Below are positions 31,749 to 51,717 of a stretch of 64,000 nucleotides of DNA, piece after piece. Below the pieces are notes generated by a model, which was not told the DNA's origin, ran no database searches, and was given only the letters and a program-made list of their open reading frames with translations. The position numbers were made by a program, and so were the translations under genes. Numbering within the stretch: the first letter of the stretch is position 1; each line of letters starts with the position of its first letter. Source of the DNA: Lysobacter panacisoli (GTDB taxonomy: Bacteria > Pseudomonadota > Gammaproteobacteria > Xanthomonadales > Xanthomonadaceae); the NCBI RefSeq assembly GCF_009765165.1, contig NZ_VLNU01000001.1, positions 1,178,001 through 1,242,000 on the forward strand, given 5' to 3'.

Positions 31749-31774
31749 GTTTCGTTCGACTGGCAGCAACGAAA

Positions 31775-31804
31775 AACGCCCCGCACTGCGGGGCGTTCTT
31801 TTTG
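31775..31804 (+). terminator. rho-independent terminator after rho
   Basis: A perfect 10-bp stem (AACGCCCCGC 31775-31784 with 31788-31797) with an ACT loop is followed by CTTTTT. A-rich sequence on its left also gives a T run on the minus strand, so it can serve the convergent amidase gene. Confidence 0.9.
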
Positions 31805-31822
31805 GGGCATGAAGATGCCCGC

Positions 31823-33338
31823 TCAGCGAGGGGAACAGGTCGTCGTGTGATCGACCGGTTTCGTGGCCACACCATCAGCATCGACAAGGGTCGTCCGCCA
31901 CTTGAAAGTGGCCGCTGGCGTGGTCGACTGTGCTGTGCAATAGAAGTTGGAGGTCAACGGCGAAGGCACCACCCTGGCGTAACTGGTGGACTTGTTACTG
32001 CACGTCCACCCACTAGGACAACTTACATTGGTCGTCTTAAGCGTTACGGGGAATCTTGGGTAGCCCGTGAAGTAGTACTTCACCGGGAAGTCCTGGTAAT
32101 ACTTTCCGGGAGAGGAAGGAATACTGCTGATTGCAAATGGCGTACAGCCCGTCCTCCCTTCGGAGTTGAGTCGATAGCCTTTTTCAACCCCGCGCATCGC
32201 GGCAGACCGGAAAGTAGCGTTCTGAAGTGCGGCCGCATCGGTCGGATTGGTGTGGAATCCGACCTCGACTATTACGGACGGCATTGTGGCAAGCCGATTT
32301 TCGCCGTAGTTGTCGTACTGCGGCGCCGTTTGCACTGGGAATGCTGTGTACGCTGGAAGCGATTGAATCTGCTCTCTCATGTAACAAAGAATGCTCGCAC
32401 CGAGCTGGGCATCCGCAATGCGCCCTTCTTGAATGAAAACTCGCGTCCCGCGCGCCAAAGGATCGCCAGCATTCGTATGGACGTGAATAAGGGTGCTAGC
32501 GCCGACATGATTCGCGAAGAGCGGCCTGCTGCGTATATCCTCATCCCGTTCTCGCAACCCGTCTGTCGATCCAGGCAACGAATGCCATATCTCTGGATTA
32601 CCTGGATATTGCCCCTGCAAGCTATAGCGAGCGAGCGCCCATCTTCCACCACGACTGCCCGCTCGGCGAATGAAGGACCCCGCTGGTCGACCTTGGGTTC
32701 GCCACAACGACACCGCTCCTCGACGCGAGGAATGCCCCAAGCTCCGTGACGAATGTCGGCGTAATGAAGTCCTCCGTGACCCCATTACTGGGATCACGCT
32801 GTGGACGCCAATCGTTGAACCCATGATGGAAGTACACGCCATGACCGGCCGAGACAGCCACCTTCCTAGGTTGCACCGACAGTACGCGGGCGCGATGACT
32901 CGCGGGCGGCAATACATCTGGGATGTAGTACTCGATCGGCCGTCCATCGAACCGATACCTGACGCCGTCGATGGAAATGATGTCCCTCAGGAGCTCCAAA
33001 GCAGCCGTACTCAGTTCGTGCTGAAGATCCTCGAAGGCCGCTCCGTTGAACTTTGGAACGTAGCTCTTGCTCAGATTGATGATCAACGCTCGACTATTTG
33101 TGTCCAGCGTGACGTTGACCGACGCGTACTTCGCTTGCCCTTCGATGCGCTCTTGGCGATCCACGATTTTCTGAAGCTCGACGCTGAGCATCCTCTCGAT
33201 CGCCACCCTGTTCTTAGCCGACAACGCCCTCGCCGGAACTTCGCTGGCCTTCACTTGGGGCAGAGCCGACATGCTGGCGGCGGCCAGCGCTACAGCAAGC
33301 ACGATTGATCTGGCCAATATGCCCTTGAATGCTTCCAT
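31823..33338 (-). pseudogene. secreted N-acetylmuramoyl-L-alanine amidase, broken by a 4-base frameshift
   Basis: The 5' part (33338 to 32622) encodes a signal peptide (to about residue 33, SRBS GGGAAGG), a domain of unknown family and the first Amidase_3 elements (VAVSAGHGV). The reading then stops at TAG just after KMGARS. The other frame continues with YSLQGQYPGNPEIW, HVHTNAGD and VEVGFHTNPTDA, the remaining zinc and catalytic motifs, plus about 110 C-terminal residues of unknown fold. Removing one CGCT unit from the three at 32626-32637 restores a single 503-residue protein. Amidase_3 enzymes cut the bond between muramic acid and L-alanine in peptidoglycan. The gene is visibly lower in GC than its neighbours. 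The frameshift may be real, phase-variable or an assembly error. Confidence 0.8.
32626..32637. repeat. tetranucleotide repeat (AGCG)3 at the amidase frameshift
   Basis: Three tandem AGCG units (CGCT on the coding strand) lie exactly where the amidase reading frame breaks. Two units would keep the frame. Replication slippage at such a repeat is the simplest explanation of the shift. Confidence 0.8.
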
Positions 33339-47883: not shown

Positions 47884-48372
47884 TCACACGCGCTCGTCGT
47901 CCTTCGCCTCGTCGCGCACGACGATGGTGATGTGGCCGTTGGTTTCCAGCAGCGCGAGGTGGATGCGATCGACCTCGCTGCAACCGGCCTCGCGCATCGA
48001 CTTGGCGAAATCGTCGCGGCTGACCAGCTCGCGCCGCAGCACTTCCTGGTAGACGTGGCCGTTGCGCGCGAGTACCACGGGCACGCCTTCGAGCAGTCGC
48101 TCGGCGCGCTTGTTGCGCGCGGTGACGAATCCGACGATCCAGTTCAGCACGATCAGTGTCGCGGCCAACAGCAGGCCGCCCGACATCGATGTGTCCTTGC
48201 CCAGCAGCGCGTTCTGCACCGCGTTGCCGAGCAGCACGATCAGCAGCATGTCGAACGCGGTGAACTGCCCCATCGTGCGCTTGCCCGACAACCGGATCAT
48301 CGCCAGCAGCACCACGTACACGACCACCGCACGCAGCACGAACTCCCACCACGGCATCGACATCTCGAACAT
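47884..48372 (-). CDS. DUF421 (YetF-like) membrane protein
   Basis: 162 residues. Three membrane helices (about 10-30, 38-58, 65-85) are followed by a cytoplasmic alpha-beta domain. RLSGKRTMGQFTAFDMLL and LLEGVPVVLARNG are family hallmarks, and ELVSRDDFAKSMREAG lies in the soluble domain. YetF-family proteins have no established enzymatic role. It converges on hemF, with ten bases between stop codons. Confidence 0.87.
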   Translation of the reverse strand: MFEMSMPWWEFVLRAVVVYVVLLAMIRLSGKRTMGQFTAFDMLLIVLLGNAVQNALLGKDTSMSGGLLLAATLIVLNWIVGFVTARNKRAERLLEGVPVVLARNGHVYQEVLRRELVSRDDFAKSMREAGCSEVDRIHLALLETNGHITIVVRDEAKDDERV

Positions 48373-48562
48373 CGCACGCCTCGCCAGCTACGGTTTGGCA
48401 GACGCTAGCCGCTGGCGGGCGCATTGGTAAGCCCCGACGGCGATCGCGGTCGAAGATCGCGGGGGGAGAGGCGAAGCGCGCGCACCGAACCCGTCCGGAG
48501 CACCAGCCCCCTTGGTAAGGGGGCGCGGCGGCAGCCGCGGGGATCGGAAGCGCATAGTGGGG

Positions 48563-48599
48563 CCCGAAGTTTTGCGCAGCGAAACTTTGGGTTTTTATT
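48563..48599 (+). terminator. strong plus-strand terminator with no obvious upstream gene
   Basis: A 13-bp stem (48563-48575 with 48579-48591, two G-T pairs) with a GCA loop is followed by TTTTTATT. No plus-strand gene ends nearby, since the DUF421 gene lies on the other strand; hemF ends 690 bases upstream. Confidence 0.6.
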
Positions 48600-48627
48600 G
48601 CCCTGCGTAAAACGCAGGCAATAAAAA
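48592..48627. repeat. inverted repeat, bidirectional terminator-like hairpin
   Basis: TTTTTATTGCC-CTGCGT and ACGCAG-GCAATAAAAA pair over about 16 bases with one bulged C and a AAA loop. The arms start with T runs on both strands. It overlaps the T tract of both the plus-strand hairpin and the small RNA terminator, so the two terminators lie back to back. Confidence 0.65.
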
Positions 48628-48745
48628 GCCCCGCAGGCAGGGGGGGCCGGCGGGGCTGGGGAGCGGGACCTGGGGAGGGGTCTTCGCTCCGGGATCACTC
48701 CAGGGGAGGGAGAGATCAGCGACAGGCGTTGCACCTGTCGCGACC
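48620..48745 (-). ncRNA. sX13: sX13-like C-rich small RNA
   Basis: On the minus strand about 125 bases fold into successive hairpins. The 5' stem is GCGACAGG/CCTGTCGC (48719-48741). Then come stem CTCC/GGAG with loop CTCCCCT (48698-48712), stem GGAGCG+GACC / GGTC+CGCTCC with loop CCTCCCCA (48660-48690), and a terminator stem AGCCCCGC/GCGGGGCT (48627-48657) with an inner GGC/GCC closing loop CCCCCCT, followed by TTTTTATT. Three C-rich loops and the position next to polA match my recollection of Xanthomonas sX13, which pairs its loops with G-rich translation-initiation regions of mRNAs. The exact 5' end is uncertain; a TATAGG -10-like sequence is near 48744-48749. Confidence 0.65.
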
Positions 48746-48924
48746 TATATGACCATTCCGCACATGGATGGTTCGTGAAGATAACCGTTAACAAAATGTT
48801 GGATTCAGGAAGGATTCATGCGTTTGGAAACGTTTTTTCCCGGGATTCCCGTTCAGACAGGAATGGCCCCGGTGATGGCATGAAACCTGTCGGACCTGAA
48901 TCCGACGAACGGTAGGCGCAGGCG

Positions 48925-51717
48925 TCAGTGCGCCTCGTCCCAGTTGGCGCCCACGCCGCTGTCCACGACCAGCGGAACCCGCAGGCCGGCCGCGCTGGAC
49001 ATGCGCTCGCGCGCTTCGGCGACCAGTGTATCGACGAATCCGGCCTCGACCTCGAACACCAGTTCGTCGTGGACCTGCAGCACCATCAGCGCGCGATCAG
49101 CGTGGTCGGCCAGCCAGCCGTCGATTGAGATCATCGCACGCTTGATGATGTCGGCGGCCGTGCCCTGCATCGGCGCGTTGATCGCGGCGCGCTCGGCGCC
49201 CGCACGCAGGCCCGCGTTGCGCGCATGGATGTTGTCCAGGTACAGGCGGCGGCCGAACACGGTCTCGACGTAGCCCTGGTCGCGCGCCTGCTGGCGGGTG
49301 CGTTCCATGAAATCGCGCACGCCCGGATAACGGCTGAAGTACAGCGCGATGTAATCCTGCGCCTCGCCGCGCGCGATGCCGAGCTGGCGGGCCAGTCCGA
49401 ACGCGCCCATGCCGTACATCAGCCCGAAGTTGATCGCCTTCGCGGCCCGACGTTCGTTGCTGCTCACGTCATCCATCGCCTTGCCGAACACTTCCGCCGC
49501 GGTCGCGCGGTGGATGTCCGCGCCCGACTCGAACGCGCGCAGCAGGCTCGGGTCCTCCGACAGGTGCGCCATGATGCGCAGCTCGATCTGCGAGTAGTCG
49601 CAGGCGACGATGCGGCGGCCTTGCGGCGCGACGAACGCCTGGCGGATGCGGCGACCGTCCTCGGTGCGGATCGGGATGTTCTGCAGGTTCGGATCGCTGG
49701 ACGCCAGCCGTCCGGTCGCCGCGCCCGCCTGGTGGTAGCTGGTATGCACGCGACCGGTATCGCGATTGACCATCTCCGGCAACTTGTCGGTGTACGTACT
49801 GCGCAACTTCGACAGACCGCGGTACTCGAGGATCACGCGCGGCAGTTCGTGGTGCTCGGCGATCGCCTCCAGCGCTTCCTCGTTCGTCGACGGCGCACCG
49901 GACGGCGTCTTCACCAGTGCCGGCAGCTTCAGTTCATCGAACAGCAACTGGCCCAGCTGCTTGGGCGAATCCAGGTTGAAGGTGCGTCCGGCGAGTTCCG
50001 TCGCCTTCTGCTGTGCGGCGAGCATGCGCTTGCCGAGATCCGCCGACTGCCGGCGCAGTTCGTCGGCGTCGATGCGCACACCGTTGGCTTCCACGCGTTC
50101 GAGCACCGGCACCAGCGGCATCTCGATCTCGCGGTAGACGTGCGCCAGGCCGGATACCGCCTCCACCTTCGGCGACAACACGCGGTGCAGGCGCAACGTG
50201 ATGTCCGCATCTTCCGCGGCGTAACGCGTGGCGTCCTCGATGGACACCTGCGAGAACGGAATCGACTTCGCGCCCTTGCCGGCGACGTCCTCGTACTTGA
50301 CCGTCTCGTAGCCGAGATAGCGGCGAGCGAGCGAGTCCATGTCGTGGCGCGTGGCGGTGGCGTTGAAGACGAAGCTTTCCAGCATCGTGTCGTCGGCGTA
50401 GTTGCGCACCTCGATGCCGTTGCGACGCAGTACGTGCAGGTCGTACTTGCCGTGATGGCCCATCTTCTTGCGCGCCGGATCGGCGAGGAGCGGTGCGAGT
50501 GCGGCCAGCGCCTCGGTACGGTCGAGCTGCTTGGGCGCGCCCGGATAATCGTGCGCGAGCGGCAGGTAGGCGCCGCTACCCGGCTCGACCGCAAAGCTGA
50601 TGCCGACCAGGCGCGCCTGCATCGGATCGAGCGAATCGGTTTCGGTGTCGAACGAGAACTCCTCTGCTGCGCGCAGGCGTTCGAGCCAGCGATCGAACTG
50701 TTCGCTGGTCAGCACGGTTTCGTATTCGCCCGGCGCGGACAGCGCGGGATCGGTCGCGTCGGCCGGTGCTGTGGCGCTGCGCGCATAGCCGGCCGCGGTG
50801 TTGCGCACACCGGACGGACTGCCGGGATGGTCTTCGACCACCGCGCCCGGGCCTTCCAGCTCGCGCAGCGCCTGCTTGAAGCCGTAGCGCGCGTACAGCG
50901 TGCGCAGCGCGTCGACGTGGCGCTCGCGCAATACAAGATCGGTCGGACCGCGGTCGAGTTCGACGTCGGTATGGATGGTCGTGAGCGTGCGATTGAGCGG
51001 CAGGCGCGGCAGCGCGGCGCGCAGGTTCTCGCCGATCTTGCCCTTGATGCCGTCGGCATGCGCGATGACGGCGTCGAGCGTGCCGTACTCGCCCAGCCAC
51101 TTGGCGGCTGTCTTGGGCCCGCACTTGTCCACGCCCGGAATGTTGTCGACGCTGTCGCCCATCAGCGCCAGCAGATCGACGATCTGGTCCGGCCGCACGC
51201 CGAACTTCTCTATCACCGCCGCGTCGGAATCCAGACGACTACCGCTCATCGTGTTGACCAGCGCGATGCCGGGGCGCACCAGCTGGGCGAAATCCTTGTC
51301 GCCGGTGGAGATGGTGACGTCGATGCCCTCGCCCGCCGCGCGCAGGGCGAGCGTGCCGATCACATCGTCGGCCTCCACGCCGTCCACGCGCAGGATGGTC
51401 ATGCCCAGCGCCTCGACGATCTCGCACATCGGCTGCACCTGCGCGCGCAGGTCGTCGGGCATCGCGGCACGGTTGGCCTTGTATTCGGGATACAGATCGT
51501 CGCGGAAGGTCTTGCCGGGCGCGTCGACCACGAAGGCGACGAACTCCGGTCGTTCCTTCAGTGTCGCGCGCAGCATGTTGACCACGCCGAACAGCGCGCC
51601 GGTCGGCTCGCCGGCATCGTTGGTCAACGGCGGCAGCGCGTGGAAGGCGCGGTAGAGGTAACTGGAACCGTCGATCAGGACGAGACGGCGCGGCGCGGTC
51701 GGGGCGGGATTGGACAT
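48925..51717 (-). CDS. polA: DNA polymerase I
   Basis: 930 residues, all three domains intact. The 5'-3' exonuclease (1-290) begins LVLIDGSSYLYRAFHA and has VEADDVIGTLA. The 3'-5' proofreading domain (about 330-520) retains the DxE motif (SFDTETDSL). The polymerase domain has DYSQIELR (motif A), the O-helix region RRAAKAINFGLMYGMG and QVHDELVFE (motif C). It fills gaps and removes RNA primers. Its 3' side carries the sX13-like RNA, whose terminator may also end polA transcripts. Confidence 0.97.
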   Translation of the reverse strand: MSNPAPTAPRRLVLIDGSSYLYRAFHALPPLTNDAGEPTGALFGVVNMLRATLKERPEFVAFVVDAPGKTFRDDLYPEYKANRAAMPDDLRAQVQPMCEIVEALGMTILRVDGVEADDVIGTLALRAAGEGIDVTISTGDKDFAQLVRPGIALVNTMSGSRLDSDAAVIEKFGVRPDQIVDLLALMGDSVDNIPGVDKCGPKTAAKWLGEYGTLDAVIAHADGIKGKIGENLRAALPRLPLNRTLTTIHTDVELDRGPTDLVLRERHVDALRTLYARYGFKQALRELEGPGAVVEDHPGSPSGVRNTAAGYARSATAPADATDPALSAPGEYETVLTSEQFDRWLERLRAAEEFSFDTETDSLDPMQARLVGISFAVEPGSGAYLPLAHDYPGAPKQLDRTEALAALAPLLADPARKKMGHHGKYDLHVLRRNGIEVRNYADDTMLESFVFNATATRHDMDSLARRYLGYETVKYEDVAGKGAKSIPFSQVSIEDATRYAAEDADITLRLHRVLSPKVEAVSGLAHVYREIEMPLVPVLERVEANGVRIDADELRRQSADLGKRMLAAQQKATELAGRTFNLDSPKQLGQLLFDELKLPALVKTPSGAPSTNEEALEAIAEHHELPRVILEYRGLSKLRSTYTDKLPEMVNRDTGRVHTSYHQAGAATGRLASSDPNLQNIPIRTEDGRRIRQAFVAPQGRRIVACDYSQIELRIMAHLSEDPSLLRAFESGADIHRATAAEVFGKAMDDVSSNERRAAKAINFGLMYGMGAFGLARQLGIARGEAQDYIALYFSRYPGVRDFMERTRQQARDQGYVETVFGRRLYLDNIHARNAGLRAGAERAAINAPMQGTAADIIKRAMISIDGWLADHADRALMVLQVHDELVFEVEAGFVDTLVAEARERMSSAAGLRVPLVVDSGVGANWDEAH

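Follow-up and report, generated by a model that had tools for sequence, protein, structure and literature searches.

A 2013 study of Xanthomonas sX13 (PMC3771888) asks, in the accessible part of its text, if the polA locus encodes RNAs in other bacteria too and if RNAs of related structure behave in the same way. In the 64-kb stretch of DNA analysed here (the window), the original prediction had placed an sX13-like RNA, with a chain of hairpins, three C-rich loops and a terminator, on the minus strand just behind polA of a Lysobacter-like organism.

An sX13 RNA behind polA

A covariance search against Rfam, the check that had been proposed with the prediction, recovered sX13 (RF02232) at 48622 to 48730 on the minus strand, with 80.7 bits against a gathering threshold of 50, an E-value of 1.9e-13 and the full model covered (1-115 of 115), bearing out the family call. 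This is the sole gathering-level match across the window, and the 3.88 Mb genome holds one copy. The core-only model R1 (below) scores the same RNA at 101.6 bits, with the window itself as one of its 32 training rows. The place is also as predicted: the upstream neighbour, a 930-aa open reading frame on the minus strand (48925 to 51717), is polA, which as a query aligns to 80 loci (the best 80 of 586) at 60-90% identity. This frame ends at 48925, and the RNA starts on the same strand at 48741 (with a 5′ hairpin) or 48730 (the Rfam match). The next open reading frame on the RNA's strand, 47884-48372, is by sequence not engB. Among the best 80 of 586 loci, Lysobacter sp. MMG2 has the closest polA, at 90% identity, which fits a Lysobacter-like host, and its locus (L002) carries a near-identical RNA.

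The hairpin chain on the minus strand was confirmed by folding, as the RNA from 48734 to 48622 has a minimum free energy of -49.1 kcal/mol (z -5.56) and none of 200 dinucleotide shuffles folded as well. All three C-rich loops are where they had been claimed, in stem-loops given by both the Rfam model and the fold. Stem-loop 1 (48693 to 48717, minus strand) has the loop CUCCCCU at 48708-48702, with C columns invariant in 32 sequences, and stem-loop 2 (48660 to 48690, minus strand) has the loop CCUCCCCA at 48678-48671, in which three C columns are invariant in 32 sequences. Stem-loop 3 (48627 to 48657, minus strand), with the loop CCCCCCU at 48645-48639 and a U-run at 48627-48623, is the intrinsic terminator with UUUUUAUU expected after the hairpins.

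The window RNA shares with Xanthomonas sX13 the full-length RF02232 match, the polA-adjacent place, three C-loop stem-loops and the terminator, and what the prediction said of the Xanthomonas RNA (three C-rich loops, a polA neighbour, target mRNAs with G-rich motifs near the start) agrees with PMC3771888 as far as its accessible text goes. It differs in its Lysobacter-like host and in the third of its loops (4C/4C/6C), which has six C as opposed to five in Xanthomonas. The window RNA is an ordinary member of the sX13 family, a known kind of regulatory RNA, and would presumably be active as a regulator in this organism as well. The 5′ hairpin, the promoter type and the relation to ErsA described below are all absent from the original prediction.

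An inverted repeat, GGGTTTTTATTGCC / GGCAATAAAAAGCC, at 48589-48630 overlaps the T-run of the sX13 terminator, and a further hairpin follows; the repeat is possibly a second, two-way terminator, and Lysobacter sp. MMG2 has a like arrangement with changed letters. At a locus of Rhodanobacteraceae bacterium ZG21-1 (L058, 5817-5980) there is seemingly an extra C-loop hairpin, giving four C-loops in place of three.

A putative sigmaE-type promoter

Upstream of the RNA, on the minus strand, lie a -35-like element of sigmaE type, GAACCA (48769 to 48774), and, 14 nt from it, a -10-like element, GGTCATA (48748 to 48754). The spacing of this GAACCA-N14-GGTCATA equals that of the motif upstream of the genome's own rpoE, TGAACTT-N14-TGTC (TGAACTTTCGCCCGAGAGGGCTGTCC); in the rpoE genes of 20 genomes, TGAACTT-N14-.GTC is found in most, and an upstream motif in 17 with a broad pattern. 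The exact form GAAC-N16-GGTC, which the window has, occurs in 19 of 52 polA loci of the own-family type against 0.12 expected. In the sister-type set (n = 24; 21 alignment rows plus L047, L079 and L081), AACTT-N15..17-TCT was present within 71 nt upstream of the RNA in 20 loci and at no other place on either strand of these loci (417,668 nt), with a pattern that had been picked after inspecting the upstream sequences.

The case for sigmaE is weaker in the own family, where the strict AACTT pattern is found in only 3 of 52 loci and many loci have TATA-like -10 letters; the -35 of the window is likewise GAACCA and not GAACTT. Sigma70 is thus a possible reader of these promoters, and under this explanation a housekeeping sigma factor would transcribe sX13 in the own family from an extended -10 (TGGTCATATAG), at whose place T/G is strong, with the sigmaE resemblance left as a relic. 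We regard this as a real possibility, though a doubtful one, given the excess of the exact GAAC-N16-GGTC form, the box spacing found upstream of the genome's own rpoE, and a consensus scan of 48400-49000 that reported no sigma70-like site. The promoter of the window looks sigmaE/AlgU-like from its letters, less clearly so in the own family than in the sister type. Xanthomonas sX13 rises at 37 C and at high salt and not with peroxide, according to the accessible part of the published account. Within the accessible text of the literature searched, no printed link between sX13 and RpoE was found, and co-mentions of the two were unrelated.

Further upstream, a direct repeat TGAATC-N5-TGAATC (48802 to 48818, minus strand) has the 11-bp step bound by some response regulators and may be an activator site; a looser form, T[GA]AA-N7-T[GA]AA, occurs in 39 of 52 own-family-type loci as a raw count.

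Distribution around polA in the order

With polA and not sX13 as bait, the best 80 of 586 loci, all from named organisms, were searched with R1, a core-only model that omits the 5′ part and was trained on 32 sequences, of which these same loci supplied 31. Owing to stems misaligned by MAFFT, its consensus contains just 17 pairs, and it served for finding the RNA and not for its structure. R1 found the RNA in 77 of the 80 loci (31 of the 77 being training rows), with no match at L067, L069 and L080; at the end of L069, model R2 (below) gives a partial match. The RNA lies mostly within ~600 nt of the polA stop, with L047 (~1.8 kb) and L079 (~2.2 kb) farther off. The genera represented are Xanthomonas, Stenotrophomonas, Pseudoxanthomonas, Luteimonas, Thermomonas and Arenimonas, together with the Rhodanobacteraceae names Rhodanobacter, Dyella, Luteibacter and Frateuria and individual metagenome bins that carry the labels Steroidobacteraceae and Nevskiaceae. 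RF02232 itself matches 146 of 299 genomes of the order, 84 of them above gathering, and nearly all lie in the own family and one other (f12). The accessible text of PMC3771888 has sX13 occurring only in Xanthomonadaceae and names four genera. A weak second match in the window, at 31771-31856 on the minus strand, is attributed to chance (E 0.032 with R1, 0.29 with R2 and 0.047 with R3).

Relatives across the class

Model R2, built from the sister-type RNA including the 5′ hairpin, has matches at E ≤ 0.001 in 30 of the 274 class genomes, 27 of them outside the own family. Within 60 nt upstream of those 27 loci, a sigmaE-like motif is present in 22 by a loose and in 17 by a strict pattern, where 0.30 and 0.07 would be expected. 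One R2 match, L231, has no promoter and is probably false.

The wider model R3, from 52 sequences, matches 130 of 274 class genomes at E ≤ 0.01. As a sample of the window's own genome gave further R3 matches at E 7e-4 to 0.14, the E-values of this model are optimistic and counts were taken at E ≤ 1e-6, which leaves 85 class genomes outside the own family, 59 of which gave no training sequence. The polA gene was sought in 80 of these (the five weakest were omitted) and located in 77. In 49 of the 77 the RNA follows polA on the same strand, at a median distance of 137 nt and within 514 nt in 46 cases; without the training genomes the proportion is 30 of 52. Among the 28 genomes with the RNA away from polA, 20 loci were examined, and 12 have it beside a gene with the motif GRSN-GKS, which we take to be that of EngB and which was used, as motif identification only, to call engB neighbours; 11 of the RNAs converge on the gene.

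In 40 non-training loci, some of which share a genus, the loose promoter motif was found 26 times (18 of 30 near polA, and 8 of 10 among L293 and nine other loci away from polA), where shuffles would give about 0.5. CTCCC occurs in the first-loop region of 37 and CCCC in the second of all 40.

As a control, R3 was run on 200 genomes of the phylum, inside and outside the class, and matched 33 at E ≤ 0.01; 16 of the 33 are outside the class, none of them below 2.1e-5. Three genomes of another class of the same phylum (G639, G698 and G732) match at E 2.1e-5 to 1.9e-4, by chance or as distant relatives. One class locus (L214; G503, C33:13149-13900) has four tandem sX13-like copies just behind polA.

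Relation to ErsA, anti-hemB and Spot 42

Pseudomonadaceae were marked in the class set through the PrrF match of one genome (127.5 bits). R2 matches 7 of 16 polA loci of this family (E 8e-4 to 0.022), and R3, which includes no Pseudomonadaceae sequences, matches 11 of the 16 at E 2.2e-6 to 0.012 and has no match at the other five. All 11 matches are just behind polA, and the 90 kb searched gave no other at any E-value to 10. Both of the loci given to Rfam, L240 and L238, were identified at the place of the R3 match as Pseudomon-1/ErsA (RF01719; 130.3 and 121.3 bits), and in L240 a converging open reading frame with EngB sequence follows ErsA. According to the accessible portions of PMC8575079, PMC5819304 and PMC7565897, ErsA is encoded in the polA-engB region and requires sigma22, its level goes up with temperature, and it reduces twitching; the dependence of its transcription on sigma22/AlgU is stated in PMC7565897 and PMC8575079.

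The window RNA and ErsA of Pseudomonas have in common the place behind polA, a 5′ stem-loop and a C-rich terminator loop. ErsA differs in having engB as its neighbour, which the window RNA does not, and in a long U-rich single-stranded part with Hfq dependence, unlike sX13, which acts without Hfq in Xanthomonas (PMC3771888; all as given in the accessible text of these sources). In the Rfam search the window gave no match to RF01719 at gathering, and when checked for an ErsA-type promoter its GAACCA-N14-GGTCATA proved to have a degenerate -35. The same search gave no match of the window to anti-hemB (Burkholderia RNA 7, RF02837), which is tied to the window RNA through intermediates only. When 20 class-level RNAs were compared with Rfam at a loose threshold, 19 matched anti-hemB (E ≤ 0.1; L293 above gathering), 7 sX13 and 5 ErsA, mostly over one shared stretch of RNA. 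Matches of the same RNAs to ar14 (4), Atu_C7 (2) and CcsR1 (1), all below gathering, mean that such cross-matches speak for kinship only when combined with place and promoter.

The three RNAs could instead be non-homologous, with C-loops, sigmaE promoters and the polA/engB place having arisen independently. The difference in U-rich part and Hfq dependence would fit this explanation, as would the lack of an Rfam clan for sX13 and ErsA and the weak ar14, CcsR1 and Atu_C7 matches of the intermediates, by which C-rich architecture alone scores. We consider it unlikely, given that models free of Pseudomonadaceae sequences match 11 of 16 polA loci at one place and nowhere else to E 10, and that intermediates stand beside polA or engB in many families with a shared promoter type. 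The union of sX13 with ErsA and other polA-linked RNAs is probable, and on this evidence we favour a reading in which sX13, ErsA and perhaps anti-hemB are branches of one ancient, Gammaproteobacteria-wide, sigmaE-controlled RNA at polA/engB, with a 5′ hairpin and C-loops that would cover G-rich ribosome-binding regions. No printed link between sX13 and ErsA was found in the literature searched, which took in few subscription papers. Spot 42 (spf) of E. coli is flanked by polA and yihA/engB, is encoded on the strand of polA and is by sequence not of the C-loop type, unlike sX13; it was rejected as a homologue, as a search of the E. coli K-12 locus with R3 gave nothing at E ≤ 10.

A covarying hairpin at the 5′ end

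Preceding the three C-loop stem-loops, at 48719 to 48741 on the minus strand, is a hairpin with an 8-bp stem and the loop UGCAACG (GCGACAGG-UGCAACG-CCUGUCGC), within the interval 48620-48745 of the original prediction. It is outside RF02232, whose model starts inside the hairpin loop: AACG is the start of both the Rfam model and the published 5′ end, and the other half of the hairpin lies upstream. When extended in the 5′ direction, the window RNA folds into four hairpins at -65.3 kcal/mol (minimum free energy), the R2 alignment of the window begins at 48739, and RNAalifold predicted the 5′ helix unaided on the sister-type alignment.

Across related loci GCAA is kept in the loop and the stem shows compensated changes. 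In alignment A3 (53 rows of the own-family type, 43 distinct), 94.2% of the hairpin cells are paired, a percentage favoured, more than covariation is, by the rule through which the rows of A3 and A4 were chosen (at least four stem pairs; 73 of 80 loci used). In A3, 46 cells carry changes on both sides, where shuffles give 14.6 and none of 500 reaches 46, and sliding the partner by 1-3 columns lowers pairing to only 28-53%. In A4 (21 sister-type rows, 18 distinct) 100% of the cells are paired, again under that rule, and 19 are changed on both sides against 6.1 in shuffles (0 of 500 reach 19); further pair types, one of five measures, gave no excess in A4 (6 against 7.2). At the 40 class-level loci, a 5′ stem of at least 5 is present in 38 against a shuffled fraction of 0.53, a moderate excess only, and one of at least 7 in 28 against 0.08. 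This covariation makes it very improbable that the dyad serves in DNA as an operator bound by a transcription factor and is not an RNA hairpin, as its position at the expected primary transcript start and the beginning of the Rfam model in its centre might suggest, since its arms vary with compensation while the loop GCAA stays, and protein binding would preserve the half-sites.

The covarying hairpin of the window locus stands against the published description of the Xanthomonas sX13 5′ region, in the accessible text of PMC3771888, as unstructured and dispensable, with a 14-nt truncation functional in plants. As the published 5′ end lies within the hairpin loop and at least 14 nt behind the -10-like box, we infer that it is a processed or shortened end.

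Proposed mechanism and wider meaning

We think it highly likely that the locus makes an sX13-type regulatory RNA with a sigmaE-type start and four hairpins whose C-loops lower the translation of G-rich targets. A holoenzyme of sigmaE/RpoE type would initiate near 48743-48739 and give a transcript of ~120 nt with four hairpins, the first of which, with the published 5′ end in its loop, would cap the transcript or be processed. The three C-rich loops would then base-pair with target mRNAs at G-rich stretches of the Shine-Dalgarno or early coding region, and this pairing would block or lower translation. The window RNA most likely works like Xanthomonas sX13.

With the extra hairpin, the stress-type promoter and the likely kinship to ErsA, separately named RNAs may be one widespread family. 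The 5′ hairpin, the sigmaE-like promoter, the probable ErsA kinship and the 85 further class genomes go beyond the literature searched. The polA-locus question of PMC3771888 is answered directly, as such an RNA is found in many families, usually beside polA or engB and with an rpoE-like promoter, and the question of whether related RNAs act alike gets a testable answer. If the common origin is true, the window RNA is the Lysobacter form, the sX13 'virulence regulator' is at root an RNA arm of the envelope-stress response, and the findings on ErsA (envelope stress, biofilm, motility) and those on sX13 (type IV pili, hfq, stress induction) concern a single regulator.

hfq as a candidate target

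In Xanthomonas, according to the accessible text of PMC3771888, three reporters were repressed only if the C-loops and the 4G motifs of the targets were both present, compensatory mutants failed to restore regulation, and hfq was repressed via a 4G motif located nine nt after the AUG. The hfq leader of the window's own genome, TTGGGGAACAACGTC-ATG, has GGGG at -13 to -10. Starts of hfq could be placed in 39 of 42 family loci (L112-L153), and GGGG is present at -20..-5 in 23 of the 39, the own genome included, within the gene's first 20 nt in 16, and in neither place in 10. Of 228 genes called crudely from a sampled 424 kb of the own genome, 20 have GGGG at -20..-5, so that hfq stands out, with the reservation that a run of G makes a good Shine-Dalgarno sequence in its own right. 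From these motifs, hfq appears to be the likeliest target of the window's sX13 RNA. A GGGG at codons 3 and 4 as a general feature of hfq was rejected on the same counts. The position of the motif differs between genera, being either codons 3-4 (AAGGGG) or the ribosome-binding site, and at least 5 of the 39 have both.
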